Below are positions 1,764 to 22,980 of a stretch of DNA of 27,373 bases, piece by piece. Source of the stretch: a virus; IMG/VR virus record IMGVR_UViG_3300040943_000159, positions 1-27,373 of that record; one strand, written 5' to 3'. The notes under the pieces are model-generated. The model was not told the origin of the DNA. It was given only the letters and a program-made list of their open reading frames with translations, and made no database searches. The translations under genes were made by a program, and so were the position numbers. How positions within the stretch are numbered: the stretch's first letter is position 1; each line of letters opens with the position of its first letter.

Positions 1764-2563
1764 AGAAACGCGCTCAAATCGCCACAGCCGTGGAAATCGC
1801 CAACGGGAAGGTAATCGAGCAAGCGCCGGCGTCTACCGACTCGACGACCGAAACCCATTCGGGGCCTGCGGCCCGGCAGGGAGCGAACGAACAGAACGGC
1901 CGGGAAGCGGCTTCCGCGGCCGACGATGCGGCGCCCGCCACCGAGAGCCTTGCGAAGAACCCCGTGTTGCGCGATGGGAAGGCGCAGAAACTGGTTGATA
2001 AGTTGCTTACCGAGGGTTCGACCTTTGAAGAGGTCGTCGAGACGGCGAATGAATGCGGCGTCCCCGGGATCACCCTCACCGCCGTCAAGAGTTACTTTCA
2101 GGGAAACCCGCAACTGCAAGCCCAGCGCGTGCACTACCTGGTTGAAACGGGTGAATCGCTGCTGGCGGGCCTGGGCGACCCCGAATCCGCGGAAGCGCGC
2201 TTGGCAAAAGCCGCGTTCCTGACCGGCTACTTGAACCTCTACCAGGACGCCCCGCCGATTACGCCCAAGGATGCTGAGCACGCCCGCATGGAGCGCGCCA
2301 ATCTGAACCTCAAGCACAAACTCCTCGTCGTGCAGAGGGACAAGGCCCGGCAGGCCCTTAGATTTACGGAAGAGAGAATGCGCACTCTCGTGCTGACGCA
2401 GCAGAAGCTCAGGGAAGAGATTGGGACGCTGCAGCAGGATGCCAAGCGACAGCAGTCCGGCGAACCCCTGGGGCCGGCGATGCTGCAGAGAATTCAGCAG
2501 ATCTACGGACTGACTTGTCAGCCGGTGCTCAATGGGGGACGTGGCGATGCCGCGAAAGCGTAA
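1760..2563 (+). CDS. Probable terminase small subunit (Mu gp27/DUF3486-like)
   Basis: The product is 267 aa. Residues 1-70 are polar and low-complexity. Residues about 75-115 (LVDKLLTEGSTFEEVVETANECGVPGITLTAVKSYF) form an HTH-like helical DNA-binding module as expected for a terminase small subunit. Residues 150-245 are long helices with Arg/Glu/Gln, coiled-coil-like (RMRTLVLTQQKLREEIGTLQQ). Position directly before the terminase large subunit and after the gp26-like HTH gene matches Mu gp27 (DUF3486). It is longer than usual (about 180-200 aa in the family, from memory) because of the low-complexity N-terminus. Its 3' end overlaps the next gene's start in another frame. GGAG at 1748-1751 is the likely ribosome site. 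Confidence 0.6.
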   Translation: MKKRAQIATAVEIANGKVIEQAPASTDSTTETHSGPAARQGANEQNGREAASAADDAAPATESLAKNPVLRDGKAQKLVDKLLTEGSTFEEVVETANECGVPGITLTAVKSYFQGNPQLQAQRVHYLVETGESLLAGLGDPESAEARLAKAAFLTGYLNLYQDAPPITPKDAEHARMERANLNLKHKLLVVQRDKARQALRFTEERMRTLVLTQQKLREEIGTLQQDAKRQQSGEPLGPAMLQRIQQIYGLTCQPVLNGGRGDAAKA

Positions 2564-3842
2564 CAAGCCGCAAAGCAGTCGAAAGTCGAAAGTCAAAATT
2601 CGAAAGTCGACCGTCGACACTCGACCGTTGACGGGCGACACTCGACAGGACCCGACTGCGAGGCGACGGTTGAGAAACACGAAGCCTGTCATCCTTCGCT
2701 CCCCCGAAAATGACTTCCCTCCTCAGTTGGAGGAGGGGTTGGGGGTGGTGGGTGCGAGCACCGCGACACCACCAACCACCCCTGACCCCTCCTTAGCAAG
2801 GAGGGGAATCGTTTCCATGCCAGGTGGTGAGCCGGAGGATCATGGAATCCTCTGCCAGGGTGACAGTCGTGCTTCGAGAGATGCAAGAGAAGATGTGACC
2901 GTCCTGCCTTCCTTAGCTCCGGTTCTGCAATTGCTTCCTTATCAGCGCCGCTGGGTTGAGGATGATTCACACCTCAAGATCGTGGTGAAGGCTCGTCAGA
3001 TCGGCTATTCCTTCGCCGCCTCGATTCGCGCTCTGCTCGAATGCCTGAAGAAAAAGACAACCTGGATATTCCTTTCCAAAGGCGAGCGGCAATCGCGGTT
3101 GCTGATGGAAAAAGTCCAGGAGCACATTAAATCTTGCGGGATTCTGGCGCGGGCCTGCGAATCGAGCTTTTTCGAAGGCACGCTGATTAAACAGTTGGAA
3201 GTCCGCTTCGCCAACGGATCGGTCATCTACGGCCTTCCCGCCAACCCTGACACCGCGCGCGGCTACTCGGGCAACGTCACTTTGGATGAGTTCGCTTTCC
3301 ATGCAGACGCTGACAAGATTTATACCGCCCTCTTCCCTACCATCACGCGCGGGTATGGCCTGGAAGTCATCTCGACGCCCAACGGGCAGCAAGGGAAGTT
3401 TTACGAACTGGCGAAAGCGGCAGGATTGACGGAATCGGGTGATCGGGAGATCGGGAGATCGGGAGAACAGTCGAAATTGGAAATCCGCGACGAATTCCGG
3501 CTCTCGAACTTAGATTCTTCTGTTCACCCGATCATTGTTTCACCCGATCACCCGATCACCCGATCATCCGATCGCCTGGTGTGGTCCGCCCATTGCGTGG
3601 ACATTTACGAGGCCATCCGCCAGGGGCTCAACATCGACTTGCAACTGCTCCGCGCGGGTTGTGACGACGAAACTTCCTGGCAACAGGAATACTGCTGCCA
3701 GTTCGTCTCGACCGCGGAAAATTTTATCCCACCCGCACTCATCGCCCAGTGCGTCAGCGCCGAGGCCAGCGCGGACTGTCCTCTTCAGTTCCTGGCCTCG
3801 GGGCGCCCCGCCCCAGTTGGGAATCAGCGAGTTTTCACGTAG
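2547..3842 (+). CDS. Terminase large subunit, ATPase half (Mu gp28-like; frameshifted)
   Basis: The reading frame gives 431 aa from ATG 2547; an alternative ATG is at 2532. The packaging ATPase begins at about residue 130 (LLPYQRRWVEDDS, a Q-motif-like start). It has a Walker A-type KARQIGYS (about 147-154), a Walker B VTLDEF (about 243-249) and a coupling motif ISTPNG (about 275). These mark the gp28 family that powers headful DNA packaging. The first about 110 residues are encoded by repeat DNA (2577-2650 and 2698-2815) and have no protein-family look. A further in-frame repeat lies at 3433-3574 after the STPNG motif. The frame stops at 3842, before the nuclease domain, which continues in another frame (3749-4657). 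So the gene is split, either truly or by an assembly error. Confidence 0.8.
   Translation: MPRKRNKPQSSRKSKVKIRKSTVDTRPLTGDTRQDPTARRRLRNTKPVILRSPENDFPPQLEEGLGVVGASTATPPTTPDPSLARRGIVSMPGGEPEDHGILCQGDSRASRDAREDVTVLPSLAPVLQLLPYQRRWVEDDSHLKIVVKARQIGYSFAASIRALLECLKKKTTWIFLSKGERQSRLLMEKVQEHIKSCGILARACESSFFEGTLIKQLEVRFANGSVIYGLPANPDTARGYSGNVTLDEFAFHADADKIYTALFPTITRGYGLEVISTPNGQQGKFYELAKAAGLTESGDREIGRSGEQSKLEIRDEFRLSNLDSSVHPIIVSPDHPITRSSDRLVWSAHCVDIYEAIRQGLNIDLQLLRAGCDDETSWQQEYCCQFVSTAENFIPPALIAQCVSAEASADCPLQFLASGRPAPVGNQRVFT
2577..2650 (+). repeat. GTCGAAAGTCGA / GTCGAGTGTC inverted array in terminase N-terminus
   Basis: The left arm has repeated GAAAGTC units. The right arm (GACACTCGACCGTTGACGGG...) reads on the opposite strand as GTCGAGTGTCG-type units. 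The array is translated in frame as an Arg/Lys/Ser-rich segment (RKSKVKIRKSTVDTRPLTGD). Confidence 0.6.
2698..2815 (+). repeat. Large GC-rich palindrome inside the terminase reading frame
   Basis: GGAGGAGGGG, then GGGGGTGGTGG, are answered about 30 nt later by CCACCAACCACCCC and CCCCTCCTTAGCAAGGAGGGG-type sequence, so the whole piece can fold as a long stem with hairpin tips. It keeps the frame open and encodes Pro/Thr/Gly-rich sequence. From memory, this is a dispersed genomic palindrome type. Confidence 0.65.
3433..3574 (+). repeat. GATCGGGTG/CACCCGATC inverted array inside terminase ATPase gene
   Basis: The left arm (3433-3470) is ATCGGGTGATCGGGAG followed by more GATCGGGA units. The right arm (3523-3574) is ACCCGATCACCCGATCA-type units. 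The interior carries TCGAAATTGG / CCGGCTCTCGAAC material resembling the TCGAAATT family. The array is translated in frame between the ISTPNG motif and the C-terminal ATPase helix (WSAHCVDIYEAIRQG). Confidence 0.8.
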
Positions 3843-4657
3843 GAGCGCAAGGTCCCGTACCTCCAACCACGGGGAGTGACCATGCGCTTGTGGAATCGCA
3901 TGGTCATGCACCCCTACCTGCGGACTTTTACATGGGCATCGATATCGGCCGGCGCCACGACCGGACGGTTTTTTGGGTGGACGCAGTACAGGTGTCAGGT
4001 GCCGGGTGTCAGGTGTCAGATTCCAGGTACCAGTCGCAAAGCACGGAGGGTCTGGTCCCTGACACCCGAAACCTGACACCTGGCGCCTGTCGGGTCGCCG
4101 TGACGCGCATGGTTCGCACGTTTTCGAATACACCGTTCGCCGAGCAGCTTGCCTTCGCTCGGGAGATTCTCTCCTTGCGACGTGTAGGGGGGCCCCTTGG
4201 GGTCCCCGAGGGACGGCAAGCCCTCCCCCCACAGTCGGCGGGGGAATATCTGATTCGGCGCGCCTGCATTGACTCCACGGGCATGGGCGCGCCGCTGGCG
4301 GAATCGTTGCAGCAGGAATTTGGTCCGCGCGTCGAGCCGGTGACGTTTACGGCGGCGGTAAAAGAAGACATGGCGTATCGCGTCCGGCGGCGCATGGAAC
4401 AGCGGCTGGATCTTATCCCGGATGCGCCGCAAATCGCTCGCGCCTTTAGCGCGGTGAAGAAGCTCGTCACGCTCTCGGGCAACACCCGCTTTGATGCCGA
4501 GCGTACGGACCAGGGGCACGCGGATGAATTCTGGGCCAAAGCCCTTGCCGACCTCGCGGCCGAACAGCCCGTCGCTTCCAGCTTGAGCGACGGGGCGATT
4601 GTGGGAACGCCACGCGCGTCCGTGTGGATGCCCGCGCCGCTGCCGTCCGTGTTTTAG
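3749..4657 (+). CDS. Terminase large subunit, nuclease half (Mu gp28-like; separate frame)
   Basis: The open frame is 302 aa. The RNase H-like nuclease begins at about residue 61: MGIDIGRRHDRTVFWVD supplies the first catalytic Asp, RRACIDSTGMG (about residue 170) the second, and GHADEFWAKALADLA near the C-terminus carries the third acidic position typical of terminase nucleases. The first about 60 residues overlap the ATPase half in another frame and look like junk. ATG 3932, directly before GIDIG, is the first start that makes protein sense. Two repeats interrupt the domain in frame (3989-4089 and 4183-4233). Together with 2547-3842 this makes one complete gp28 protein broken by a frameshift in 3780-3930. 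Whether a separate subunit is made, ribosomes shift, or the gene is dead cannot be decided from sequence. Confidence 0.75.
   Translation: MRQRRGQRGLSSSVPGLGAPRPSWESASFHVGAQGPVPPTTGSDHALVESHGHAPLPADFYMGIDIGRRHDRTVFWVDAVQVSGAGCQVSDSRYQSQSTEGLVPDTRNLTPGACRVAVTRMVRTFSNTPFAEQLAFAREILSLRRVGGPLGVPEGRQALPPQSAGEYLIRRACIDSTGMGAPLAESLQQEFGPRVEPVTFTAAVKEDMAYRVRRRMEQRLDLIPDAPQIARAFSAVKKLVTLSGNTRFDAERTDQGHADEFWAKALADLAAEQPVASSLSDGAIVGTPRASVWMPAPLPSVF
3780..3930 (+). repeat. Hairpin-bearing insert at the terminase frameshift
   Basis: This stretch fits neither terminase half. It contains a perfect 9-bp hairpin GACCATGCG (3878-3886) / CGCATGGTC (3897-3905) with a 10-nt loop, and the stop codon of the upstream frame (3840-3842). 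A repeat insertion whose length is not a multiple of three would explain the broken frame. Confidence 0.5.
3989..4089 (+). repeat. GGTGTCAGG/CCTGACACC inverted array inside terminase nuclease
   Basis: The left arm (3989-4020) has CAGGTGTCAGGTGCCGGGTG-type units. The right arm (4058-4089) has CCTGACACC, CCTGACACC and GGCGCCTG. It is in frame and separates the first nuclease strand (MGIDIGRRHDRTVFWVD) from the next strand (VAVTRMVRTFS). Confidence 0.75.
4183..4233 (+). repeat. G-run/C-run hairpin inside terminase nuclease
   Basis: GTAGGGGGGCCCC is opposed by GGGTCCCC and then CCCTCCCCCCACA, forming a G-rich hairpin of about 50 nt. It is in frame, encoding a GPLGVPEGR-type loop just before the second catalytic motif. 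Confidence 0.55.
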
Positions 4658-4659
4658 CC

Positions 4660-4765
4660 GTAGCGCCGGGCTTTAGGCCAGCAGTGCTGCCGGCGGAATT
4701 TTGAATTTGCGATTTGTGATTTGTGATTTGTGATTGAGCAATTGCAATCACCGATTGCCAATCGG
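4660..4765 (+). repeat. Spacer with GTAGCGCC palindrome and GATTTGTG/CAATCACC inverted array
   Basis: A GTAGCGCCGGGCTTTAGGCC half-element (4664-4684) is followed by the GATTTGTG-family left arm (4699-4736) and a right arm CAATCACCGATTGCCAATCG (4745-4764). It directly precedes the portal ATG. A TTG at 4734 inside the array is in frame with the portal but makes no biological sense as a start. Confidence 0.75.
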
Positions 4766-4778
4766 AAATGAAAAAACG

Positions 4779-6341
4779 ATGAGTTGGTTTGAAACAGTTC
4801 GCCAGATCGTAACGCCGCAAACAAGCTACCCGATGGTGACTTTGTTCCCCGGGGGGCCGATCGGCAACGATGTGGGACTGAATCCCGCGGCCGCGCCGGG
4901 CGGCGGAGCAGTCCCCGAGGCGGCACCTCCCCCCACCTCTCCGAGGGGAGGTGGCGTCCTTGACTCCCGGCGCCTCGCACCCGAAACCTCCTTACGCGGC
5001 GCCGTCGGCACCGCCAATTTCGCTGGTTTCATCAGAGACCTGGGCGAGTACAACGCCGTCTTAGAAGGCCGCAATGCCTTCCTGATTTACGAAAAGATGC
5101 GGCGCTCGGATGCGGATGTGAGGGCGGCATTGCTCGCCTGCAAGCTGCCCATCCGGGCCGCAGACTACCAGATCGTGCCCGGCCTCAAAGAAAACGAGCC
5201 GGGCTTTGCCCTGGCAAAACAGATTGCCGAGGAAGTCCGGGACAACCTTTTTATAGGACTCGAATCGCCCACCAGCACGGGCTGCTGGGTAACTCAAAAC
5301 TTTGAAACGGTGAAAGAAAATGCGCTACTTTGTTTGGATTTCGGCTGTGCCGCGCACGAAGACTTATGGCACATCGATGGTGACAAAGTCCGGCTGCGCA
5401 AACTCGCGCCACGCCTCCCTTACACCTTCTATCGGTATCACGTCGATGAAGACGGGGAGTCGCTGCTCTTCCTGGAGCAGTATGGATATCGCGGAAACAA
5501 CTTCGTTAATGTGCTGGTCCCCGCCGAAAAACTCGCCTACTTTGTGAACGACATGGAGGGAGCGTACTTCTACGGGCGCTCCGTGCTGCGCGCGGCCTAT
5601 CAACACTGGTACATGAAAAGCCAGATCTACCGCATCGACGCGATCTCGATCAAGCGGAACGGCCTGGGCGTGCCCACCATCAAGCAGGGCGCCAACGTTT
5701 CCGCGGAAGACCGCAAGGCGTCGCAGAACTGGGTGCAAATGCTGGCCGCGCACGAGAGCACCGGACTCTCCTTGCCGAATGGGTGGGATTTCGCTCTGAC
5801 GGGAGTGTCCGGGCGCGTGCGCGACCCGCAGGCCTCGATCCAGCACCACAGCGAAATGATCATGCGCTCAGTGTTGGCAAACTTCCTGACCCTGGGGACG
5901 ACGCAAACCGGCTCGCGCGCCCTGGGCGGGTCAATGCGCGACTTCTTCTATCTCTCGCTCGAGGCAATTTCGCGCAAGATCGACGAGACCATCTCCAACA
6001 CCAGCATCCGGCGCCTGGTGAATTACAACTATACGCCGCAGCCGGGCCGGCGGCTTCCCTACCCTCGCCTCATCACCTCGAACATCCTGGTGGTTAACCC
6101 GCTCGAACTGCTCGAAGTGGCCAAGGACGTAGGGAGATTCGACGTGGACCTGCTGCAACCGGACAACGACACGGAGAACTGGATTCGCAAAAAGTGCGGC
6201 TTGCCGCTGAAGTCGAAGACGCCGCGCACCCGCTACGCGCCAGTGCAGGAGCGCATTCAAGAAACGGTCGAAAGCGATGCGCCCATTCAGCCGGAGACCC
6301 CGGCTGGCCGGGAGCGAAGCTCGGCCGCTGGCAGGGATTAG
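4779..6341 (+). CDS. Portal protein (Mu gp29-like, DUF935)
   Basis: The product is 520 aa from ATG 4779 (MSWFETVRQI), a normal size for DUF935 portals. The portal forms the dodecameric ring at the head vertex through which the terminase pumps DNA. Supporting sequence: DADVRAALLACKLPIRAADYQI (about residue 110), KVRLRKLAPRLPYTFYRY, PAEKLAYFVNDMEGAYFYGRSVLRAAYQHWYMK and IKRNGLGVPTI, the usual portal wing/stem pattern, and a helical C-terminus. Residues about 46-65 (PEAAPPPTSPRGG) come from a hairpin insert (4933-4955). The 5' leader is a repeat array and there is no strong ribosome site. The expected next gene, MuF/gp30, is missing. Confidence 0.85.
   Translation: MSWFETVRQIVTPQTSYPMVTLFPGGPIGNDVGLNPAAAPGGGAVPEAAPPPTSPRGGGVLDSRRLAPETSLRGAVGTANFAGFIRDLGEYNAVLEGRNAFLIYEKMRRSDADVRAALLACKLPIRAADYQIVPGLKENEPGFALAKQIAEEVRDNLFIGLESPTSTGCWVTQNFETVKENALLCLDFGCAAHEDLWHIDGDKVRLRKLAPRLPYTFYRYHVDEDGESLLFLEQYGYRGNNFVNVLVPAEKLAYFVNDMEGAYFYGRSVLRAAYQHWYMKSQIYRIDAISIKRNGLGVPTIKQGANVSAEDRKASQNWVQMLAAHESTGLSLPNGWDFALTGVSGRVRDPQASIQHHSEMIMRSVLANFLTLGTTQTGSRALGGSMRDFFYLSLEAISRKIDETISNTSIRRLVNYNYTPQPGRRLPYPRLITSNILVVNPLELLEVAKDVGRFDVDLLQPDNDTENWIRKKCGLPLKSKTPRTRYAPVQERIQETVESDAPIQPETPAGRERSSAAGRD
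4933..4955 (+). repeat. Hairpin insert in portal N-terminus
   Basis: CCACCTCTCC-GA-GGGGAGGTGG is a near-perfect 10-bp stem. It lies in frame within a Pro/Gly-rich linker of the portal and resembles dispersed 'CCTCTCC..GGAGAGG' hairpins elsewhere in the window (16050-16069). Confidence 0.65.
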
Positions 6342-7448: not shown

Positions 7449-9467
7449 ATGGCAGAACGTGCCACCTTGAAGCAGTACTTGATCGTTGATGCGGACGGAA
7501 GAGGCCATATGCCCGTGCGTGATACCGCGGACGGACCGCTCAACCACGACCTTATGAGCGTCGCCTGGGCCGTGTTGCACGGCGGATATCGCGGAATCAG
7601 GTACGAAGGGCTGGGAAAGATCGCGGCGGTCAAGAAGCTCAGGACGCTCTATAGGGTCGAGGGGATGGACGAACCGAACGCGCAGGGGGCAGATGGGGAG
7701 ATGGTGAGATTGGCAGATGGGCAGATGGGCACATGGGCAGATGGCGAGAATTCCAGAATCCGAATTCAAAATTCCAGAACAGCAATCGACCCGCGTCCAT
7801 CGACAATCGGCAATCAACGATCGACGACGGACTACCCACACGCTGCAACCGGCACTCATCCATCTGCAATCGACCATCGTCATTCGACCGCCGTCAATCC
7901 CGATGGGCCGCGATTCGTGGTGATGCTTTCTGAGCCGCCGGGCGCGGGCCTGATTCGGATTCCAATTGCCGTGACTGGCCAATGGAAAGGCGCGGAAAAG
8001 GAATTCTCGATTGGAGTCGACGATCTGAAGGAAATCCGGGAGAACTTTCGCAACAAGCCGACGCGGGAAATCAACGTCGATTACGAGCACGCCTCGGAAG
8101 TGCCTTTTGGAACCGGTGGGCCGGTGTTGTCGGCCGGCAGGATCGTGAAGTTGGATGATCCGGAGAAATTCAATGGATCGGGAGATCGAAAGATCGAGAG
8201 ATCGGGTGAACAACAAACAACCCGCTTGAGCAATTCGAATGTTCGCCCGATCAGCGGATCACCGGATCGCCCGATTGCTCACCCGATCACCCGATCACCA
8301 GATCACCAGATCCGCCACATCCTGTGGGGCTGGTACGAGCCTACGGACAGGGCGCGGCAGCTTATCGCAGCGAAGGAGTATCGCTACATTTCCCCGGCCA
8401 TCCGGTGGGGCGCAAAGGACAAGGTGACAGGGAAGGTCGCTGGAACTGTTCTCACTAGTGTGGCCCTGGTGAATAAGCCGTTCTTGGAAGAGATGCCCGA
8501 GATTCACTTGTGTGAAGTGGACGGTACGAGGACGTTTGTGAGTCTGGGCCAACTCCACCTTCCCGCGCCTGTCAACCAGGATCCGGGATTCAGGACTCGG
8601 GATTCAGGATTCGGAAAATCGGGTGATGGGATGATCGGGAAAACAGAAGTGCGGGAGCCGGGAGCCAGAAGTCAGAAGCCGGGAACCACAAGCTCCTCAC
8701 TCGTCACTCGTCACTCGTCACCGTTAGAAAAGGAGAAGGAAATGGCAAAAACTCTGAAATTGAAGTGCCTCACCGACGAACACATCGAAAAGCATGGCCT
8801 CGAGCCGGAACTGAAAGGCAAGATTGGAGTCTTCGACGGTGAGGAATTGATCGGCGTTGCGGACGGCGCCGAAGGTTGGGAAACCAAACACGGCGACGGC
8901 GAAGACGCCAAGAAACTGGCGGAGGTTTTCGCGTCTGAAATCGGGCTGCCAGGGTTGTCGATGGTGGATATCGCCGCCCTGGTGAGGCGCGGGTTCGAAG
9001 CCCCGCTGGATCATTTCGCCGCCCTCTCCGAAAGCATCCACGACGGCCGGATGAACCTGCTGGAAGCCGGCAAGCTGGCGGACGCGGGGCGGGTTAGTTT
9101 TTCCACCGTACTGCGAGCTCAAGAAGCCGAACGCAGAGTGGACGCGGCCGTGAAAGCGGGTAAGGTGCTGCCCAAAAACCGCGCTCAGGCGCTGAAGCTG
9201 GCGCTCTCCGATGCGGCGGTGTTTAGCGCGCTGGTCGAGCACTCTCGGCCGGTGGTTGACCTCCGCAGTCATGGCCACGCGGGCGGCGGCGAACAGCCCA
9301 CCGCGCAACAGGCCCTGATGGCGGAAGTGAACGCCTACGCCAAAGAGAATAAGTGCTCCCTCAGCGCGGCGCTCTCTGATGTGACCAAGCGCAACCCGGA
9401 ACTCTGGCGGCTGTACTCGGAAGAGATTGTTACCGCCGTCGAGGCAGCAGCAGAAGAAGAAGAATAA
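7449..9467 (+). CDS. Mu I-like capsid maturation protease with C-terminal scaffold
   Basis: The product is 672 aa from ATG 7449; the ATG at 7371 lies in repeat DNA. Residues 1-80 (MPVRDTADGPLNHDLMSVAWAVLHGGYRG) look like a small separate domain. The protease (PF10123-like, Mu I) starts at about 155 (RFVVMLSEPPGAGLIRIPIAVTGQW). It includes INVDYEHASEVPFG (about 205), GWYEPTDRARQLIAAKEYRYISPAI (about 295) and SVALVNKPFLEEMPEI, the usual Mu I order. The C-terminal 241 residues are a helical scaffold with its own start (8742). The protease cleaves scaffold during prohead maturation. Three repeat arrays (7689-7905, 8175-8312, 8580-8722) are translated in frame and fall at domain edges or a loop. 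The protein is much longer than the Mu homologue because of them. Confidence 0.8.
   Translation: MAERATLKQYLIVDADGRGHMPVRDTADGPLNHDLMSVAWAVLHGGYRGIRYEGLGKIAAVKKLRTLYRVEGMDEPNAQGADGEMVRLADGQMGTWADGENSRIRIQNSRTAIDPRPSTIGNQRSTTDYPHAATGTHPSAIDHRHSTAVNPDGPRFVVMLSEPPGAGLIRIPIAVTGQWKGAEKEFSIGVDDLKEIRENFRNKPTREINVDYEHASEVPFGTGGPVLSAGRIVKLDDPEKFNGSGDRKIERSGEQQTTRLSNSNVRPISGSPDRPIAHPITRSPDHQIRHILWGWYEPTDRARQLIAAKEYRYISPAIRWGAKDKVTGKVAGTVLTSVALVNKPFLEEMPEIHLCEVDGTRTFVSLGQLHLPAPVNQDPGFRTRDSGFGKSGDGMIGKTEVREPGARSQKPGTTSSSLVTRHSSPLEKEKEMAKTLKLKCLTDEHIEKHGLEPELKGKIGVFDGEELIGVADGAEGWETKHGDGEDAKKLAEVFASEIGLPGLSMVDIAALVRRGFEAPLDHFAALSESIHDGRMNLLEAGKLADAGRVSFSTVLRAQEAERRVDAAVKAGKVLPKNRAQALKLALSDAAVFSALVEHSRPVVDLRSHGHAGGGEQPTAQQALMAEVNAYAKENKCSLSAALSDVTKRNPELWRLYSEEIVTAVEAAAEEEE
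7689..7905 (+). repeat. In-frame multi-family repeat block in protease gene
   Basis: Tandem GATGGGCAGATGGGCA-type units (7689-7747) are followed by AATTCCAGAATCCG-type units and then ATCGACCATCG/ATCGACGAC-type units on the complementary side (7786-7900). The frame stays open, giving a Gly/Asp/Ala- then Ser/Thr/Arg-rich linker between the N-terminal domain and the protease core. Confidence 0.7.
8175..8312 (+). repeat. GATCGGGAG/CACCCGATC inverted array inside protease domain
   Basis: The left arm (8175-8209) has GATCGGGAGATCGAAAG-type units. The right arm (8242-8312) has GCCCGATCA, GATCACCGGATCGCCCG and ACCCGATCACCCGATCA units. It is in frame between SAGRIVKLDDPE and HILWGWYEPTDRARQ, presumably in a surface loop. 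Confidence 0.8.
8580..8722 (+). repeat. In-frame GGATTCAGG, GGGAGCC and TCACTCGTC arrays before scaffold start
   Basis: GGGATTCAGGACTCGGGATT units (8584-8618), then GATCGGG, GGGAGCCGGGAGCC and three tandem TCACTCG units (8698-8720) follow in succession. All are translated in frame. The block separates the protease domain from the ribosome site of the nested scaffold start. Confidence 0.7.
8742..9467 (+). CDS. Internal in-frame scaffold protein (Mu Z-like)
   Basis: The product is 241 aa, in frame with and identical to the C-terminus of the protease gene. ATG 8742 has a strong ribosome site, AAGGAG at 8730-8735 with a 6-nt gap, better than most gene starts here. MAKTLKLKCLTDEHIEKHGLEPE starts a fresh fold. 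Residues 60-241 are mainly helical (EAERRVDAAVKAGKVLPKNRAQALKLAL, AEVNAYAKENKCSLSAALSDVTKRNPELWRLY). In Mu, gene Z is nested in the 3' end of gene I and encodes the scaffold; the arrangement is the same here. The scaffold should be made in excess and removed by the protease. Confidence 0.75.
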   Translation: MAKTLKLKCLTDEHIEKHGLEPELKGKIGVFDGEELIGVADGAEGWETKHGDGEDAKKLAEVFASEIGLPGLSMVDIAALVRRGFEAPLDHFAALSESIHDGRMNLLEAGKLADAGRVSFSTVLRAQEAERRVDAAVKAGKVLPKNRAQALKLALSDAAVFSALVEHSRPVVDLRSHGHAGGGEQPTAQQALMAEVNAYAKENKCSLSAALSDVTKRNPELWRLYSEEIVTAVEAAAEEEE

Positions 9468-9470
9468 CAA

Positions 9471-9592
9471 AATCGGGTGATCGGATGAACACGTTCTGAT
9501 TGGCGATTGCTGATCGAAGAACGATATCGCAAATCAGAAATCACAAATCGCAAATGGTTCACCCGATCTCGCGATCACCCGATCACCGGATC
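9471..9592 (+). repeat. Nested palindrome: GATCGGGTG family enclosing GATTTGTG family
   Basis: The outer left arm (9471-9489) is ATCGGGTGATCGGATGAA. The inner left arm (9496-9516) is CTGATTGGCGATTGCTGATC. The inner right arm (9524-9557) has AAATCAGAAATCACAAATCG. The outer right arm (9558-9592) has TTCACCCGATCTCGCGATCA and more. The two families are arranged concentrically, like brackets, and could form one long cruciform. Confidence 0.8.
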
Positions 9593-10732: not shown

Positions 10733-10990
10733 AAGGTGTCGGGTGTCAGGTTTCAGGGGTCGGGGCCCCGTCGGCGGCATCCCCACGAGCTCGTCGCGGG
10801 TGCTCTGGCACCTGAAACCTGGCACCTGACACCTTTCTCGGGCGTCCGCCAGGGCGTTCGCCTGGATCGTCCGCTCGCGGTGGTGCCCTGGATAACTCCG
10901 AGCCGAGAAACTGCAGTGCCTGGTGCTTAGTGCCTAGCGGAGAACGACCATCCCGTGGACACTAGGCACTAGGCACTAGCCACTAGCCAC
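10733..10990 (+). repeat. Three successive palindromic elements before the major capsid gene
   Basis: First, AAGGTGTCGGGTGTCAGG (10733 onward) is answered by CCTGGCACCTGACACCTT (10818-10835); the arms agree almost throughout. Second, a TCTCGG...CCGAGA frame encloses CCAGGGC (10849-10855) / GCCCTGG (10885-10891). Third, AGTGCCTGGTGCTTAGTGCC (10914 onward) is answered by CACTAGGCACTAGGCACTAG (10959 onward). GGAGG (10993-10997) follows at once. No credible gene is present in these 274 bases. Confidence 0.8.
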
Positions 10991-11941: not shown

Positions 11942-12040
11942 CAGTAGCCAGGGTTAGCGCAGACTGCCGGTTTTGTAGTCTGCGGCTGGTCCCAAACCGT
12001 TCGAAAAACCGCGGACCGCAAAACCGGCGGTCCGCGCTAC
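11942..12040 (+). repeat. GTCTGC and CGGACCGC..CGGTCCGCGCTAC palindromes
   Basis: AGACTGCCGGTTTTGTAGTCT (21 nt, 11960-11980) forms one hairpin. GCGGACCGCAAAACCGGCGG continues into TCCGCGCTAC (12011-12040), a second palindrome ending in GCGCTAC (12034-12040). AGAGGA of the next gene follows 1 nt later. Confidence 0.7.
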
Positions 12041-12655: not shown

Positions 12656-12757
12656 GAAGGATTCAGGATTCAGGATTCGGGATTCAGGGGCAAGCCGCAT
12701 CGATCAGATTGTGGCGCGACCTGGTCCTGACACCAGGATCCTGAATCCAGAATCCTC
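12656..12757 (+). repeat. GGATTCAGG/CCTGAATCC inverted array
   Basis: The left arm has four GGATTCAGG/GGATTCGGG units (12658-12688). The right arm GGATCCTGAATCCAGAATCC (12736-12755) ends 3 nt before the next ATG. The core between the arms is about 45 nt of non-repeated sequence. It replaces any obvious ribosome site for the connector gene. Confidence 0.8.
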
Positions 12758-13791: not shown

Positions 13792-13914
13792 GAATCGGGT
13801 GAACGGGTGAATTATTTATGATTTGTGATTTCTGATTTGTAATTGGGCGTTTCACGCACCAATCACCAATCGCCAATCACAAATTGTCCGAACGATCACC
13901 CGATCACCCGATTG
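13792..13914 (+). repeat. Nested palindrome before tail tube gene
   Basis: The outer left arm (13792-13813) has GAATCGGGTGAACGGGTGAA. The inner left arm (13818-13846) has TGATTTGTGATTTCTGATTT. The inner right arm (13859-13885) has CCAATCACCAATCGCCAATC. The outer right arm (13894-13914) has GATCACCCGATCACCCGATT. It has the same concentric layout as 9471-9592. The outer arm's last base begins GAGGAG (13914-13919), the tube gene's ribosome site. Confidence 0.85.
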
Positions 13915-13924
13915 AGGAGAGAAC

Positions 13925-14713
13925 ATGGCTCCAAGTTTATCGCCGACAGCAATTCATCAAGGCCCGGGCCGGTTGTGGCTGTACGTGCCTGAACCTGCCC
14001 ACGGAAACCGGATGGTTATCGGGGCGGACGGTTCGCCCACGCAGGCCACCGGACTCGGGTCCTGGGCTGCAACGACTGCCTACGTGCTCAGCCAGATGAT
14101 CAAAGACGCGAACAACAATACAGAACTCTGCCTGGCGGCCGGGACTTCCGGCTCCTCCGCACCGTCCTGGCCCAGCGCTCCCGGCCCGGCCCTCAGCGAT
14201 GGAGGGGCTGCCTGGCTGTTTGTCGGGCCCTACGGCGCTTACTTTGCTGGTGCGACGGAGGGGGCGATCACTTCCACCATGACGCCCAAGTATCAAGAGA
14301 TTGCAGCCGACCAGGTGGCATCGCCCGTCGATGTCGTGATGACCTCCGATGCCTACGAGATTGACGTTACCATCAAGCAGTCGAATCTGGCCAACTTGAT
14401 CAGCTTCTTTCCTCCCGGCACCTTCTCGACGGGTACGGACGCCAACCAGCCTGCCGGTGCACAGGCGTATGAGCAGATCACTTTCGGAGGCATCATCCCG
14501 GTGCCCAAGTTCGGCGTCGCAGTAATCTCTCCGCGGCGAGACGCCACGGGCAAGTTCGTGGTCTCACACCTTTACCAAGCTTACCAGGCAGAGGCCGTCA
14601 AGCTTCCCTTCCAGCGCGGGAAAGAAACTACTTTCGGAGTGAAGTTCAAGGGTATCGCGGATTCCACCCGTCCGGCGGGGGACCAGGTGGGAATGGTGTG
14701 GAGACAAGTCTGA
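13925..14713 (+). CDS. Tail tube protein with inserted carbohydrate-binding-like module
   Basis: The product is 262 aa. The tube body is residues 1-38 and 105-262: beta pattern with GATEGAITSTMTPKYQEIAADQVASPVDVVMTSDAYEIDVTIKQSNLANLISFFP, then VPKFGVAVISPRRDATGKFVVSHLYQAYQAEAVKLPFQRGKETTFGVKFKGIAD. This is the usual 'D....P.d...t.e...i...l.e......l' signature of siphophage tube subunits. Residues about 44-104 (GSWAATTAYVLSQMI..CLAAGTSGSSAPSWP..LSDGGAAWLFVGP) form a small module with the 'W.A.TAY..G....Y.C..AGTSG...P.WP......DG...W' signature found in many phage surface proteins. It would project from the tube. GAGGAG (13914-13919) is the ribosome site. Confidence 0.7.
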   Translation: MAPSLSPTAIHQGPGRLWLYVPEPAHGNRMVIGADGSPTQATGLGSWAATTAYVLSQMIKDANNNTELCLAAGTSGSSAPSWPSAPGPALSDGGAAWLFVGPYGAYFAGATEGAITSTMTPKYQEIAADQVASPVDVVMTSDAYEIDVTIKQSNLANLISFFPPGTFSTGTDANQPAGAQAYEQITFGGIIPVPKFGVAVISPRRDATGKFVVSHLYQAYQAEAVKLPFQRGKETTFGVKFKGIADSTRPAGDQVGMVWRQV

Positions 14714-14838
14714 CCGATGATCGGTTGATTCGGTGAAGGGGTGATTGGGTGAACGGTAGTCGACTTCGATTTTCCCCGTTGCGATCGGGACAATCGATTG
14801 CTTCGCTCGCTCTCGCCCTGACACCGGCCAGCGGATCG
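14714..14838 (+). repeat. Degenerate GATTGGGTGA array and hairpin spacer
   Basis: Degenerate units GATCGGTTGATTCGGTGAAG and GGGTGATTGGGTGAACGG form a left arm (14717-14757). A partial answer (CGATCGGGACAATCGATTG; GGATCGGGAGG) follows. The array is less regular than others and is probably decayed. Confidence 0.5.
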
Positions 14839-14852
14839 GGAGGATGGAAACA

Positions 14853-15035
14853 ATGAAGGTCCAAGTGGATGAGCTGAGTATTTTCATTGGCCTCGATGGG
14901 CTGGCGCAGGCGAAGCCTCCCCAGGCCGCAGTAGTGGAAGAACTCGTCACAGTGGCGACGGCAGAAGCCATCCTTCGGGCGCTTCAAGCCGAGTGTTGGG
15001 AGGATGAACTGAAGTTATATCGGCTGCTGAATTGA
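14853..15035 (+). CDS. Small acidic protein between tube and chaperone genes
   Basis: The product is 60 aa from ATG 14853, spaced well from GGGAGG (14838-14843); an in-frame ATG at 14844 is too close to that site. KVQVDELSIFIGLDGL is strand-like and VATAEAILRALQAECWEDELKLYRLL is helical. No family was recognised. A tail-assembly accessory role is suggested only by position. Confidence 0.45.
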   Translation: MKVQVDELSIFIGLDGLAQAKPPQAAVVEELVTVATAEAILRALQAECWEDELKLYRLLN

Positions 15036-15040
15036 CGGTT

Positions 15041-15285
15041 TGAACAGCTCGTGTCCTGAGTCAGAAGTTCGTCAAGAGAGTTTTTCTTATGTGCGACCGC
15101 TTCTTAGAGCCCCTTCAGGGGCGGCATAGAGTAGCCCAGGGCGTGAGCCCTGGGTCAGATGGCCCTCGCCCCGTCCGTCGGTTGACGGACTACAGTCTGC
15201 CGCCCGTCCACTGGCGGGCTGAATTCTTCAACGAACTTCTAACTCGGGGCACCAGAAATGACAAGAGTTTTTCCCGATCACGGGT
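15041..15285 (+). repeat. Multi-hairpin island, non-coding
   Basis: In order: GCCCCTTCAGGGGC (15109-15122), CCCAGGGC-GTGA-GCCCTGGG (15135-15154), GTCCGTCGGTTGACGGAC (15173-15190) and CCCGTCCACTGGCGGG. These are flanked by AGTTCGTCAAGAGAGTTTTT (15066-15085) and a reversed GAACTTCTAACTCGGG. No gene is credible. From memory, the GCCCC..GGGGC plus CCCAGGGCGTGAGCCCTGGG pair is a frequent dispersed element in Acidobacteriota. Confidence 0.6.
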
Positions 15286-15304: not shown

Positions 15305-15790
15305 ATGACAACTGGAAACGGAATCGCAACGGCCGCTGACTTCCGCAAGCTGGCCGAAGAGAGTGCCTTCGAAGAAGCAAGGCGCGTGGTATTACCCGTG
15401 AGTGGTTACGCGGTGATGCTTCGACGACCCACAAAGTTCTATTGGGCGTTGCGCCGCAGCGGGTGGCCTCCGGAGTTACGCGAGAAGCTGGATCTGGTCG
15501 GCGTCGGTGTGCGGACGGACCTGACCGCCGAGGAAACACTTTTGCTTGTTCACGAGGACCGGCAGATGCTCTGTGAGGCCTTCGTTGACCCGAAGCCCTC
15601 TCTCGAGCCAGGCGCAACGCAGTTCGATCCCAACTGGCTCCCTGGAGAGGACGCGGAGTTTATTTTGAAGTACCTGCGAGGCCAGGTCCTGGCAAACGGC
15701 CAGGATCTGGAGTCCTTTCCTCGCGTCGAGTCGGGACTTATTGAGGGAAGCGGCTGCGATGGGACGGATGTACGGCAAAACACCGAGTGA
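15305..15790 (+). CDS. Tail assembly chaperone, upstream frame (G-like)
   Basis: The product is 161 aa. Support: ADFRKLAEESAFEEARRVVLPVSGYAVMLRRPTKFYWALRRSGWPPELREKL, then DLTAEETLLLVHEDRQMLCEAFVDPKPSLEP and EDAEFILKYLRGQV. This is the general layout of gpG-type chaperones, which coat the tape measure during tail assembly, and it lies between tube and tape-measure genes as expected. From about residue 140 on the sequence no longer looks conserved, while the overlapping frame (15669-15908) does. This fits a G/GT programmed frameshift. The ribosome site is weak (AGG). Confidence 0.7.
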   Translation: MTTGNGIATAADFRKLAEESAFEEARRVVLPVSGYAVMLRRPTKFYWALRRSGWPPELREKLDLVGVGVRTDLTAEETLLLVHEDRQMLCEAFVDPKPSLEPGATQFDPNWLPGEDAEFILKYLRGQVLANGQDLESFPRVESGLIEGSGCDGTDVRQNTE

Positions 15791-16124: not shown

Positions 16125-16928
16125 ATGGCCACTGACAAATCCAAAGGCAGGGGAAGCGCGCCGGGCACAACGGGAACGCGGTCAAACTCGATGGTCGACC
16201 TGAATCGGGAGATCGTCGCGCCACTTCAAGAGTTCGATAGTCTGGCCCGGCAGGTTTCCGAGGATATGACAAACCAACTGGCGCCGAGCATGCAGACTTG
16301 GGCGAGCGAAGCGACGCAGTCGATCAACGCGGCTCAAAGCGCCATGCAGAACTTTCAGATGGTAGCCAGCGGGGCATTCATGGCTACCGCCGATGCCATG
16401 ACGGCGGCGGGGATCGCAGCTTCAGTCTACGGAGATAATGTCGGCAAAGCGATGGAACAGGCCGCGAAGGCCGCCCTGGCCTCCGTTTCGGAGCAGGCGG
16501 GCGTCAACGCGCTTAATGCTTTGGCGCAGGGTCTTTGGTTTCTCGCACAATCAATCTTCTTCGGTGATCCCGACGCGGCGGCGGCGGCGGCCACAGATTT
16601 TGAAGCGGCGGCGGAGTGGGGCGCCATTGCCGGAGTGGCAGGCGCAGCGGCCGCGGCGATGCCTGGAGGCAAAAGCGCCAGCACCAACCGCGAGTCAGCC
16701 AGCCGCTCCAGTGGGGGCGGATATGGAAGCACTCCGCAAATGGGAACCTACGGTCTTGCCCCAGGCGCGGCCGGCGCGCTGAATCCCCCTAGCGGCAACC
16801 TGACTGTCATGGTGGTAGGTGATGCGCAAGCCGGCCAATGGCTCGCCACCACGCTGAACACGGCTGTGCAGCGTGGCGTGCCGCTGAACGCCACAACGGT
16901 GCAGAAGTCACCGTATGCGGCGGGTTGA
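16125..16928 (+). CDS. Short tape-measure protein
   Basis: The product is 267 aa, very short for a tape measure. Residues 25-130 are continuous helix (EFDSLARQVSEDMTNQLAPSMQTWASEATQSINAAQ...). The segment AAKAALASVSEQAGVNALNALAQGLWFLAQSIFFGDPDAAAAAATDFEAAAEWGAIAGVAGAAAAAMPGG matches the hydrophobic, Ala-rich C-terminal end of many tape-measure proteins. A Gly/Ser linker and a small C-terminal domain (NLTVMVVGDAQAGQWLATTLNTAVQRG) follow. At the usual about 0.15 nm per residue the tail would be about 40 nm. The alternative is a remnant whose N-terminal part was lost. There is no Shine-Dalgarno sequence. Confidence 0.65.
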   Translation: MATDKSKGRGSAPGTTGTRSNSMVDLNREIVAPLQEFDSLARQVSEDMTNQLAPSMQTWASEATQSINAAQSAMQNFQMVASGAFMATADAMTAAGIAASVYGDNVGKAMEQAAKAALASVSEQAGVNALNALAQGLWFLAQSIFFGDPDAAAAAATDFEAAAEWGAIAGVAGAAAAAMPGGKSASTNRESASRSSGGGYGSTPQMGTYGLAPGAAGALNPPSGNLTVMVVGDAQAGQWLATTLNTAVQRGVPLNATTVQKSPYAAG

Positions 16929-16929
16929 G

Positions 16930-17049
16930 GGAAAGGTTCAAGGATGAAGGCTAAAGGCTGAAAAAGGAAGGACAAAACGTGAAAGAGCAAGGACGGAGGC
17001 AAGGCCAAGAGGGCGGTCTCTAGACTTTATCCTTCACACTTTAGACTTT
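16930..17049 (+). repeat. AAGGATGAAGGCTAAAGG / CTTTATCCTTCACACTTTAG array
   Basis: The left arm (16932-16975) has AAGG-rich units such as AAGGCTAAAGGCTGAAAAAG. The right arm (17021-17049) is TTTATCCTTCACACTTTAGA followed by CTTTATG. The right arm ends at the next start codon with no ribosome site. Confidence 0.6.
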
Positions 17050-17433
17050 ATGGCATACCCACAGATTATTTACGATCCGGGAATCGGCCCAGTGACTCTG
17101 GCGTTTCTGCATCCCCCACGTAAGGTACCGGCTTACGATTACAGCGCGGTCCGGCACGATAACATTTCGAGCGCCGGTGTGCGCGAGGCCGTGCTTGAAC
17201 GGATTGACACCTTCCTCGAGTTGGAAATGGAGTGGGTAACCGTCGGCGCAGACGTACAGGCTTGGAATCAGTTCATGCAATTTGCGCTCAGCGGCGGGCA
17301 GTTCGGCTACTATCCGGACGCCTCCCAGCCGGCATTTACCAACTACTGGCTCGAGGACACCAATTGGACGGCGGGCTATAAAGCGCCGGGACAGTATTCT
17401 TTTAAGTTGAAGTTCAGGCAAGTGGTCACATGA
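17050..17433 (+). CDS. Distal tail protein, function unknown
   Basis: The product is 127 aa. Mixed alpha/beta: VTLAFLHPPRKVPAYDYSAVRHDNISSAGVREAVLERIDTFLELEMEWVTVGADVQAWNQFMQFALSGGQFGYYPD and KAPGQYSFKLKFRQVV. The phrase 'R.....S.SG..E.v..R....l...m..v......W..F...A..G..F.Y.PD' resembles tail-tip adaptor proteins that follow tape measures. It probably joins tube and hub. The leader is a repeat arm. Confidence 0.6.
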   Translation: MAYPQIIYDPGIGPVTLAFLHPPRKVPAYDYSAVRHDNISSAGVREAVLERIDTFLELEMEWVTVGADVQAWNQFMQFALSGGQFGYYPDASQPAFTNYWLEDTNWTAGYKAPGQYSFKLKFRQVVT

Positions 17434-17588
17434 ATCCGGTGATCGGGAGATCGGGTGACTGGATGAATGGCCGAAAATCGAAATTCGAAACTCGAAATTC
17501 GCCGTTACGGACTTCCGATTTTCGAGTTTCGAATTTCGAGTATCGGGTTTTGCGTTCATCCGATCACCCGATCTCCCGATCACCCGAT
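17434..17588 (+). repeat. Nested palindrome: GATCGGGTG family enclosing TCGAAATT family
   Basis: The outer arms 17434-17467 and 17555-17588 match in about 31 of 34 positions as reverse complements. The inner arms 17471-17501 and 17515-17547 share a 20-nt perfect reverse-complement match (TCGAAATTCGAAACTCGAAA). The whole element can fold into a single stem of more than 60 bp with a small loop. This is the clearest example of the concentric architecture. Confidence 0.9.
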
Positions 17589-17602
17589 CTTCGGACGAAG
17601 TT

Positions 17603-17785
17603 ATGATTCAAGGAAACCAAACTTGGGCGCAAGCCTTGGCGCAAGCGCAGAAGCAGCCCTACTACTTAGTCGAGATTCCGGACTTCGCCATCGCCATCGC
17701 GAGCTTTTCTGTAACGGCTAACGTCGCGATAACCCTCAGCGGGTATGGTGTCACGCTGTACGGCGTTGGCGGTTACGGAACGTAG
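17603..17785 (+). CDS. Short N-terminal hub-like fragment
   Basis: The product is 60 aa. TWAQALAQAQKQPYYLVEIPDFAIAIASFSVTAN resembles the beginning of siphophage hub proteins ('..P.YL.EIPD...IASF'), normally continued by 'YL.IP.G..Q.VN.L.G.SSLG...I..IDP'. That continuation occurs here about 965 residues into the next gene. The fragment ends with GYGVTLYGVGGYGT, echoed as GYGVGLYGIAPYGT near residue 650 of the next protein. It may be a remnant split from the hub gene by insertion, or a small gene in its own right. It is preceded by repeat DNA and has a weak ribosome site. Confidence 0.5.
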   Translation: MIQGNQTWAQALAQAQKQPYYLVEIPDFAIAIASFSVTANVAITLSGYGVTLYGVGGYGT

Positions 17786-17877
17786 AAAGGATTAAGGATT
17801 CGGGATTCAGGATTCAAACGGAGAACTCACTTGGTTCCTGCTGAATCCCGAATCCTGGATGCTAAATCCTGGATTTA
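17786..17877 (+). repeat. GGATTCAGG/CCTGAATCC inverted array before hub gene
   Basis: The left arm (17786-17816) has AAGGATTCGGGATTCAGGAT. The right arm (17837-17877) has CTGAATCCCGAATCCTGGAT and AAATCCTGGATTTAG. It ends 4 nt before the hub ATG, leaving no ribosome site. Confidence 0.8.
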
Positions 17878-17881
17878 GAAA

Positions 17882-20800
17882 ATGGCAACGGTCTCACAAT
17901 ATTATCCAGGCGATCTTTACGGCGACGTTGCCCAGTCGCTCGCCTGGCTCTATGCGCAGCAGGAAAAGCTGGTTCAAGGTTGGGACGCGAACGCGCTGGA
18001 GACCGGCTTTCCAGTAACCGCATGGCCGGGCGCCCCATGCGTCCCGACGACCCCGCCCTTTATCGAATGCGGCATTGTTTCGCAGAATGACCTAAGTCAG
18101 TTTGCGCAGACCGCTTGCGAGACCATCGTCATGATCCCGCCCACCATATTAATGCTGGGGATGGACGACCAGCTTGGTCCGGACGGTTGCCCTATTGACC
18201 TCTCGCCCATCCCACTTCCTTACGGGCCCCTTTTACCGCCAGTGCTTCCTGTCACGGCTGTCGAGATCAGCGCCTATTACCAGCAAATGTGTGCTGACAG
18301 CCCCAATGGCTGCGTGATCAACGGCGTCACTTATCCAGTGCTGCCGGGGCTGACGATCAACGGCTACCTGTTCAACCCCCAGCAAGTGATGACGAACTAT
18401 CGCATCGACCTCTTCGCTCAAACAGACATCTTTTATTACCAGGGATCAGCGGTCGGTACTGGCCCTTACACGTCAGGGCCGCTGGAAGGGCAATACCCCG
18501 CACCTTCGCAATTTCAATCGCTTCTGGTCCAGCAAGGACTTTACGGTTATTGGGGCGCGCAGGTGCCCTATCCGGGACTGATCATCGCGGTGCTCTACCC
18601 AACCAGCGTCCCACAGCCGGCGCCGGGCTGGTCGGGCGCATCCCTGCCAGCCGGCTGGCTGTGCCACTCGAATACAGGAGTTGGCTATAAGCTGACAGAT
18701 TATTTCGCGCGAATCTACGCCAAGACGGACGTTGAATACCTCCAGGAAGATAACATCCCGATTATCGTACAGGACGATTACCACGCCCGCTGTGGCTCGA
18801 GTCATCCGCTTAATCCCGGCACGCCAACCGTGCACGTGATGTACAACGATCCTGTGAAGGGTCCCACACAGGTTTGCACTTCGCTCGCGGCCGACTGGGC
18901 ATTCCCCACCTTGCCGCTCAGCTATGTTGTTCCCACGTCCGACCCGCTCTACCTCCCCGATCCCACGATAACCAACGGGGCCGCCCTCCAAAACCGCAGC
19001 TGCATCTACGATTGCGCGCTGGCGATCATCGCGTTCACGGCCTCGGGGAACTTTGTGGCAGCGGCGCGCATCATCGAGCAGCTTGAAGAAATTCTGGACA
19101 CCCCCGGCTATCTGCCCGTGATTATCTTCGAGAATGGTGAAGACGGACACTCGACGACGCGCTGGACGAAGAGCAACCCCGCAGATTCAGTAACTGATAT
19201 AAACGATCCCACGCAGCCGCCATACGGTGACGGTTTGGTGGTGGATTTCCACGCGTTGTCTGCCAATGACACCTTCACTTACTGCGGCACTGGACTACCA
19301 GATATCACGGACACACAGGTCCAGTTCCAGCACAAAGAAGTCCAGGCCGTCACCTTTAATTTTGCCATCGGCGTCACCACGGCCGCGGGAAAGGTGACGA
19401 GTGTCCAGGTAACCTCAGGGACTCCGGCGCCGGCGGTTCTGAACGGAACCGTGATCACCATCGCCGTCGGTCCAGGGAGCGGCATCTACCGTTTCGAACT
19501 GGTGAACGTGGCCGGCGTGGTCTCGACACTCGCCGGTGACACGCTCACTTCGATCAATAGTTTTGTGGTTGCGCTGACGGCGGCGGGCGATATGTACTTC
19601 GATAACTTCTCCGCCGGAAATGTCCTAACGGCCAATTCTCTCGCCTTCAGTTACGACACTTACAACGGCCTAGCGGATCAGGCTTACATCCGTGCCGGGG
19701 CCATGGCATGGGTGTGCTATGCCTACTGCATCTACATGCAGCTCACCCAAGATTACAGCCCGGCTCTCTATCTCCAGCGCATGCTCGAATTCCTTATGAC
19801 CCTTCAATCCACCACCGGAGGCGGTTACGGAGTGGGGTTGTACGGCATTGCTCCATATGGGACCGGGGATATCACCGGCGGTCTCTTTTACCTTGGCTTT
19901 GGCACCTATGTCAATCCCGGGTATCAGTTCGTGCCTGGCATTCAGTGTCGCGTCTCGACCGAACACCAGATCGACCTCTATTTTGCTTTCCAGCGCAGCG
20001 CCGCAACGCTGCCCACTGCAGCGATTCAGCTTCAGAAAACCGGCACACTCACTCCGGCTCAGGCCGCAGCGCTGAATGCCACGGCAGCGCAGGTTGCCCT
20101 CGCGTCGAACACCATCGCCACAAACGTTGTTGGCAACCTCTATATTCCCCCCAGCAACGGCGTGCCCGGCCACTTTGCTCAGGGAGCCGGAACTGATGCC
20201 GCCCCGCCTGCGGGCCTCGACACCAGCCAGGCATGCGATGCCGCGGGCACTTGGGCTGCGCTTTTCTGCCACGCCATCGGGCGTGACGACTTGGCACTCG
20301 AATGTCTCGAGTTCGTCGATCAGAACTTCCGGCTTCAGAATCAGCAGATACAGTTATCCTCGGCGACTAATTCCTATAACGAAACTTACCAGCAGCTAAC
20401 CCCGTTCAGTGGATTCAAGTTTTTCAACGATTCTCCGGGAGGCTATTCGGGCTCACCTCTGAGCGTCTCGCAAGAACAGAGTTGGAGCATGCTTCTGGCT
20501 TTGCTGACTCTGTACAATGTCTCAGGGGTATCCAGTTATTTTGCGGGCGTCTACGGCAGCCTCGACGCCTACCTCACCACGCTGATCACCAGCCAGCGCA
20601 CCATGCGTTCCACCACCGGCGATGGCTCGCTGCTGATGTATTCCCTGGCCTCGCGCGACTTACCTTATGAGTTCGAGGTCTGGCCGGCCTTCACTGCCAC
20701 AGCATGGTTTTATCTTGTCGCGACGCATCCTGGCTTGCTTCTCACTTTGGGTAATACTCCAACCATTATTCCTTACCTTCAAATCCCCCAGGGGGCAAGC

Positions 20801-22238: not shown

Positions 22239-22389
22239 CAATGGTTTTGGAAACTGGAAAACGGAAATCGGAAAATGGGTCCTGGGATTCGTTCCCCGCT
22301 GTGATTTCCACCCCTCAGCCTCGATTCTCCATTTTCCAATTTCCATTTCCAATCTCCGTTTGCCAGCTTCCATTTTCCAGTTTCCAGAA
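22239..22389 (+). repeat. TGGAAACTGGAAA / TTTCCATTTTCCAG inverted array
   Basis: The left arm (22239-22278) has TGGAAACTGGAAAACGGAAA. The right arm (22325-22389) has TCTCCATTTTCCAATTTCCA and further TTTCCA units. The core is about 45 nt. It ends about 10 nt before the next ATG. Confidence 0.75.
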
Positions 22390-22888: not shown

Positions 22889-22968
22889 TACAGGATTCAG
22901 GAGTCAGGATTCAGGATTCAAAAACGAAACCCGGTGCCCTGAATCCTGAATCCCGAATCCTGAATCCT
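22889..22968 (+). repeat. GGATTCAGG/CCTGAATCC inverted array before fibre gene
   Basis: The left arm (22891-22920) is CAGGATTCAGGAGTCAGGAT plus a further TCAGGATTCA. The right arm (22938-22968) is CCTGAATCCTGAATCCCGAA plus TCCTGAATCCT. It has the shortest core of the family (about 17 nt). GGAGG at 22969-22973 immediately follows the right arm. Confidence 0.85.
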
Positions 22969-22980
22969 GGAGGTTCCTAA

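Follow-up and report, generated by a model that had tools for sequence, protein, structure and literature searches.

The window analysed here, the whole stretch of 27,373 bases of an IMG/VR record, carries a Mu-like head and tail module encoding terminase, a Mu portal protein, a Mu I protein and capsid, and is a Mu-like Acidobacteriota prophage. Its right end holds a DUF5666 gene and dnaE2, both on the minus strand, which probably represent host flank. The encoded DnaE2 is closest to proteins of Acidobacteriota (72%; an Acidipila MAG, Ca. Acidiferrum and a gp2 MAG). A search for a close prophage among 396 Acidobacteriota genomes yielded distant capsid relatives only and did not find the host species. 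The large terminase is split (2532–4657): one ORF encodes the ATPase part, and a second ORF, overlapping the first in another frame, encodes the nuclease part; since a phage relative, G1, shows the same split (about 3786–5419), this is probably no sequencing error. The single match to an Rfam curated family in the window is Acido-Lenti-1 (15108–15154, minus strand; 53 bits, cut-off 37), located in the gap between ORFs 13925–14713 and 15305–15790.

Between two genes of this phage lies a palindrome composed of two different 8-letter repeats, one nested within the other (Table 1). It begins exactly at the base following the stop codon of the upstream ORF and ends 14 nt ahead of the next ATG; this copy is thus intergenic, unlike the in-frame copies in terL and the I protein gene. 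The sequence-only reading had described outer arms pairing at about 31 of 34 positions around inner arms with a 20-nt perfect match; the arms were assigned to two unrelated families of degenerate microrepeats, arranged like brackets and able to form a stem of more than 60 bp. Both arm figures were reproduced at exact coordinates, the perfect run being TCGAAATTCGAAACTCGAAA, and the bracket order of unrelated families is supported. Folding gave a strong stem for RNA and DNA alike: 64 bp and −99.5 kcal/mol for the RNA of 17434–17588, and −67.6 kcal/mol for the DNA of 17400–17620, compared to −31.5 ± 3.4 in shuffles (z −10.7), with 0 of 200 shuffles folding as well. The inverted repeat at this locus scored 25, whereas the best one in three dinucleotide-shuffled versions of the window reached 14.

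The same reading had separated the element from REPs, MITEs and terminators, and all three distinctions stand. Its arms consist of degenerate 8-nt tandem units lacking a GTAG or CGTC tag and a conserved 20–40-nt sequence, interiors are not common to the copies, and the stem is followed by no T-run, nor were terminator-like sites detected within 16900–17900. Searches at the palindrome for an Rfam curated family, and around it for a promoter, were negative.

Table 1. Components and neighbours of the nested palindrome, and further microrepeat palindromes in the window.
Feature	Position	Strand	Remarks
Upstream ORF, 127 aa	17050–17433	+	conserved in relatives, without family match
Outer left arm	17434–17467	+	four units, ATCGGGTG family; 31/34 complementary to 17555–17588
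Inner left arm	17471–17501	+	TCGAAATT family; 28/31 complementary to 17516–17546
Central loop, 14 nt	17502–17515	no strand	read from the sequence
Inner right arm	17516–17546	−	pairs with inner left arm 17471–17501
Outer right arm	17555–17588	−	CACCCGAT reading; convergent with outer left arm
Downstream ORF, 60 aa	17603–17785	+	its start codon bounds, on the right, the segment exchanged among relatives
ATCGGGTG bracketing a TCGAAA-like core	3434–3572		in frame in terL; nested layout by eye
CAGGTGT-family palindrome	3989–4082		terL C-terminal ORF; frame open
ATCGGG-family palindrome	8176–8312		in frame in the Mu-like I protein gene
Nested arrays, ATCGGGTG outer and ATTTGCG inner	9470–9592		junction of I protein and next ORF; layout by eye
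GGTGTCA-family palindrome	10733–10835		ahead of capsid gene
AGTGCCT-family palindrome	10915–10984		ahead of capsid gene
AGGATTC-family palindrome	12658–12756		
Concentric two-family palindrome, ATCGGGTG outer and ATTTGTG inner	13793–13913		second clear case
AGGATTC-family palindrome	17788–17870		past the 60-aa ORF
GGAAACT-family palindrome	22245–22389		
AGGATTC-family palindrome	22891–22969		kept in G1

The element is not a one-off, because the window carries about 12–15 palindromes of 7–8-nt microrepeats. They belong to many families, including ATCGGGTG, TCGAAATT, AGGATTC, GGTGTCA, AGTGCCT, ATTTGTG, GGAAACT and others. Irregular forms occur as well: at 8571–8721 left arrays of several families stand opposite an unrelated right array, and half elements are represented by L119, which retains one arm only. 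GTAG-type REP-like palindromes were observed in the same kind of slots (window 11955–12039, L021 5200–5280 and G1 4830–4895, the last in terL). Ahead of the capsid gene, two family-swapped palindromes are separated by a partly conserved stretch of ~80 nt (about 10836–10914; CTCGGGCG...GATAAC...), present in the same gap of G1 and G2 and possibly a regulatory element.

Five relatives from other metagenomes are collinear with the window, their proteins being mostly about 70–88% identical, and most of the orthologous gaps in them hold a palindrome, usually of another family. The shared sites are stop-to-start gaps and, inside terL and the I protein, linkers that take inserts in frame. At the gap under study the window carries ATCGGGTG and TCGAAATT, G1 carries CAGTTGT, L21 a GTAGGGGCG palindrome and L23 AGTCGAAA, while G2 is concentric again, with AGCTGAAA outside and AATGGTG inside. 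This gap in L21 and terL site 2 of G1 are among the slots occupied by GTAG-type REP palindromes. At the I protein site 8176–8312, G2 has a GGGAATA palindrome instead. Not all coding copies keep the frame, as the I protein of G1 shifts frame at its first insert, and gaps without a palindrome exist: in L21 and L23 the ORF after the tail gene follows within a few bases. Fold z-scores fell below −3 in 51 of 72 gap or insert segments of the six collinear phages, picked around genes of this one clade (median −4.1), versus 0 of 56 control windows.

Between L21 and L23, identity at the 17434–17588 gap is 0.51, against 0.45 in shuffles and 0.94 and 0.93 in the flanks; another gap of the same pair shows 0.99. 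For most pairs, orthologous gaps are no more alike than shuffled sequences, even with 93–97% identity in the flanks, while other gaps of the same phage genomes reach 0.97–0.99, and one gap is 97–99% identical in three assemblies. Unrelated gap content beside near-identical flanks therefore indicates that whole palindromes are exchanged at fixed sites.

Arms may also enclose native sequence. A portal segment that is also found in G3 (PGDTSK.LP.GR...PAK.R..QA) lies between ATCGGG arms in L195, and in L23 arrays of the ATCGGG family flank a small ORF. This ORF (MKIPVDEL.../MKVQVDEL...; L023 3028–3370, window 14711–15050) is absent from G1, G2 and L21, which have other palindromes at that place. 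Towards the end of its coding sequence, the p161 gene of L21 and L23 contains a GCCCGCC..GGCGGG pair (L023 about 3910, L021 about 3750) that seemingly surrounds a resident 8-nt stretch present in G2 (about 13350).

The bracket order, too, recurs elsewhere: a systematic scan of two-family arrangements found eight nested, none crossed and one or two side by side, four of the nested cases being separate loci within one host genome, G191. Each family always has one strand first, and array pairs converge. Homotypic neighbours are arranged as X..X′ in 58 cases and in reverse in 0, with polarity labels taken from palindromes in the same data and family patterns made by hand from them; the 44 heterotypic neighbours, some of which are degenerate members of one family, divide into 22 +−, 13 ++, 7 −− and 2 −+. 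Close pairs across whole genomes, read by eye from listed hits and counted independently of the palindrome-derived labels, gave convergent-to-reverse ratios of 14:0 for CACAGAG, 14:0 for CACGGAG and 7:0 in G415 for ATCGGG, the outer family at 17434–17588, or 35:0 for the three motifs combined. A comparison of 74 loops found likeness between non-orthologous ones only where repeats lay within the loop; apart from repeats, the sequences compared offered no source for the loops, which can be native coding sequence.

Evidence on how the two arms relate to each other is mixed. The sub-variant CAGAG or CGGAG is uniform across both arms in 28 pairs, with one mixed pair (G191 C11), and the arms must therefore be coupled somehow. 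In the dnaE2 gene of G022 (L107), CACAGAG stands in place of the relatives' CACGGAG in every unit of the two arms, around a partly conserved loop, showing that two arms can be rewritten together. In tight families, by comparison, an arm resembles its partner about as much as it resembles arms of other elements (21.5 vs 20.8 for ATCGGGTG, 19.4 vs 19.4 for AGGATTC). At 17434–17588 the left arm has its best match in its own right arm (25 vs at most 21), but six arms of other elements match the right arm better (26–29) than its own left arm does, making the arm-copy evidence for this element equivocal. Variable unit positions pair at 77% versus 46% expected, a figure inflated by the choice of best register; an interpretation of the arms as simple inverted copies, drawn from it, was dropped after comparison with decoy arms.

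Some Acidobacteriota genomes contain hundreds of microrepeat palindromes each, with many families per genome. In the sampled hosts, metagenomic drafts covered mostly by contig starts, the gp2 MAG and Ca. Acidiferrum have none, others have densities of 0.06–0.9 per 10 kb, and G191 reaches 1.2; phages show 0.8–4 at the same threshold. The outer ATCGGGTG family is present in 3 of the 396 genomes, G415 alone giving 80 hits. One permissive linker of dnaE2, the gene of the error-prone polymerase, between ALN(S/E)(V/I) and HRRDALW, takes in-frame inserts of several families across species (CACGGAGG, GTGGCCA, GTACCGA, AGTTTCA, CAGTTCT and others), for example at L042 7747–7884; the sister genome L058 is empty there, as is the window's own dnaE2. 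At a different dnaE2 site, G191 carries a concentric insert, CACGGAGG outside and ATTTGCAA inside, in frame and without a stop codon. Palindrome density is not tracked by the number of Y1 transposase genes (PF01797 in all 8 genomes, 3–18 copies), nor, in the sampled genomes, does abundance follow the counts of reverse transcriptases (RVT_1).

We propose, with a probability of roughly 60%, that the segment, which consists of two convergent array pairs, the TCGAAATT pair lying in the loop of the ATCGGGTG pair, belongs to a large neutral or selfish class whose members give way to unrelated families over short times. Such pairs would occupy slots tolerating extra DNA in some Acidobacteriota and their Mu-like phages, namely stop-to-start gaps and permissive in-frame linkers. 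The arrays would be deposited as pairs facing inward from either side of any intervening sequence, the palindrome being a by-product. The concentric form would come about when a further pair is added later inside an existing loop, so that the inner pair is presumably the younger; the neutral or selfish status of the pairs is likewise what we infer. Inward laying in pairs would account for the bracket order, the polarity, the unique loops and the native sequence found between arms. As to the modes of growth suggested from the sequence alone, stepwise addition of arms fits this scheme, while template switching across a hairpin is unsupported, given the fixed polarity and, in tight families, arms that are not specifically alike.

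The arrays themselves may arise when the 3′ ends on the two sides of a break or gap are extended directionally, by a slippage-prone or templated process, and then joined; this origin is a guess and an unlikely one. It would fit the fixed polarity, the unique loops, the heterotypic arms, the nesting without crossing and the coupling of sub-families. In its telomere-like form, likewise unlikely, a healing process in Acidobacteriota and their phages would extend both 3′ ends with short family-specific repeats, repair would leave convergent arrays around a loop, and repeated events would create concentric families. Three points count against the inward laying of pairs: the same families turn up in different species, as would not be expected of a strictly local process, both arms usually share a sub-variant, and the counts of Y1 transposases and reverse transcriptases do not track abundance. 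Fixed polarity could also be compatible with a binding-site function.

Fixed polarity, nesting, unique loops and a weak unit-by-unit match of arms disfavour template switching, transposition of whole units and terminators. Mobile palindromic elements akin to RPEs, REPs or MITEs nevertheless deserve attention, although we regard them as unlikely; they would transpose as complete hairpins, and the inner hairpin would have entered the loop of the outer. Insertion of a ready-made palindrome would fit the in-gene frames, the shared hot spots, the nesting and the fixed polarity; the GTAG-type REP palindromes in some of the same slots and the combination of ATCGGGTG with TCGAAA, present in the window at both 3434 and 17434, speak in the same direction. 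However, copies of a family have arms in common and not loops, and the lack of any special likeness between partner arms in tight families, the heterotypic arm pairs and the arms around native coding sequence argue against such elements. Their density is also unrelated to transposase counts. Neither insertion ends nor target duplications could be made out in the comparisons of the relatives' gaps and of dnaE2, which included no clean occupied and empty pair of sufficiently recent origin.

Slightly less probable is that a nucleoid or regulatory protein binds both arrays of a pair, with selection keeping them convergent at a variable distance, as proposed for Geobacter metallireducens. Convergence, variable unique loops, 3–5 units and many families all match the account of that bacterium in PMC2700814, whose class 2 unit, TCTCCGTS[Y], equals CACGGAGA read on the other strand. 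Against such sites speak the swapping of unrelated families at one site between close relatives, the many families per genome, the in-frame copies in dnaE2, terL and the I protein, and the nesting of different families.

Inverted duplication of one array by template switching or hairpin-primed synthesis is improbable. Variant units stand in register in some elements, including 17434–17588 (the GGGAG unit 2 and the GGATGAA inner end), as this process would predict. Yet switching would yield X..X′ and X′..X alike, and each family shows one polarity; it further predicts arms copied unit by unit, which the tight families do not display, and arms of different families can pair up. To the same low degree we consider an RNA hairpin or terminator that selection maintains between the phage genes, acting in mRNA stability or translational insulation and bound to structure but free in sequence. 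Its argument is that structure is kept and sequence is not, because differing palindromes sit between the same genes; the absence of a T-run, terminator-like site or Rfam match here, the in-frame copies within genes, which it leaves unpredicted, and the gaps devoid of a hairpin in L21 and L23 oppose it. An assembly artefact is conceivable, as inverted repeats are prone to misassembly and the phage records are all metagenomic, but it is very improbable in view of palindromes at the same sites in five independent assemblies, the gap that is near-identical in three of them and frames open across most coding copies.

If paired inward laying is right, repeats noticed piecemeal in single genomes would be one general, rule-bound feature of phages and hosts, whose arrays fill neutral DNA and insert peptides into working proteins. 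The rules of polarity, bracket order and site re-use make the origin of paired heptamer and octamer arrays testable, and the five collinear relatives, with gaps differing mainly in their palindrome, offer a natural experiment.

A concentric two-family order, a polarity rule or a family exchange at fixed sites was not found described in the open-access literature, and full-text searches with the motifs of six families led to unrelated papers only. GTAG- and CGTC-tagged REPs are small palindromes between or inside genes, including dnaE2, and sometimes occupy the same gene site in two species (PMC3733652). They measure 20–40 bp and have a tag and a conserved sequence, whereas the arms described here are tandem microrepeats without a tag, around unique loops; unlike REPs and BIMEs, their abundance does not follow the RAYT/Y1 transposase. 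Rickettsia palindromic elements, ~150 bp long and inserted in frame in unrelated genes, form several families (PMC10969869). The in-frame insertion into terL, the I protein gene and dnaE2 is similar, but RPE families have a conserved sequence and encoded peptide, and the elements studied here have in common only 7–8-nt units that turn over at fixed sites. MITEs combine terminal inverted repeats with a shared interior, and interiors are not shared here. In Beggiatoaceae, heptameric TAACTGA repeats are arrayed ahead of start codons (PMC4679880); the CAGTTNT arrays found here share their unit class with TCAGTTA, but the Beggiatoaceae repeats are direct, with a single inverted case reported in that genome.

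The closest known system, next to REPs and RPEs, is the paired hepta- and octanucleotide arrays of Geobacter metallireducens (PMC2700814). They occur in many copies, each array having 3–5 tandem 7–8-nt units and a partner at varying distance on the other strand; classes 1–3 of these 'putative global regulator binding sites' were distinguished, with IHF- or HU-like proteins proposed as putative binders, and the proB–proA spacer contains different repeats in two Geobacter species. The arrays are presented there as regulator sites of one bacterium, and not as concentric, as in-frame exchanged inserts or in phages, and the consensus units given in the text do not include ATCGGGTG and TCGAAATT. The architecture is the same as here, two arrays of 3–5 tandem 7–8-nt units on opposite strands with variable spacing, and the class 2 unit corresponds to the CACGGAGA family of Acidobacteriota hosts.
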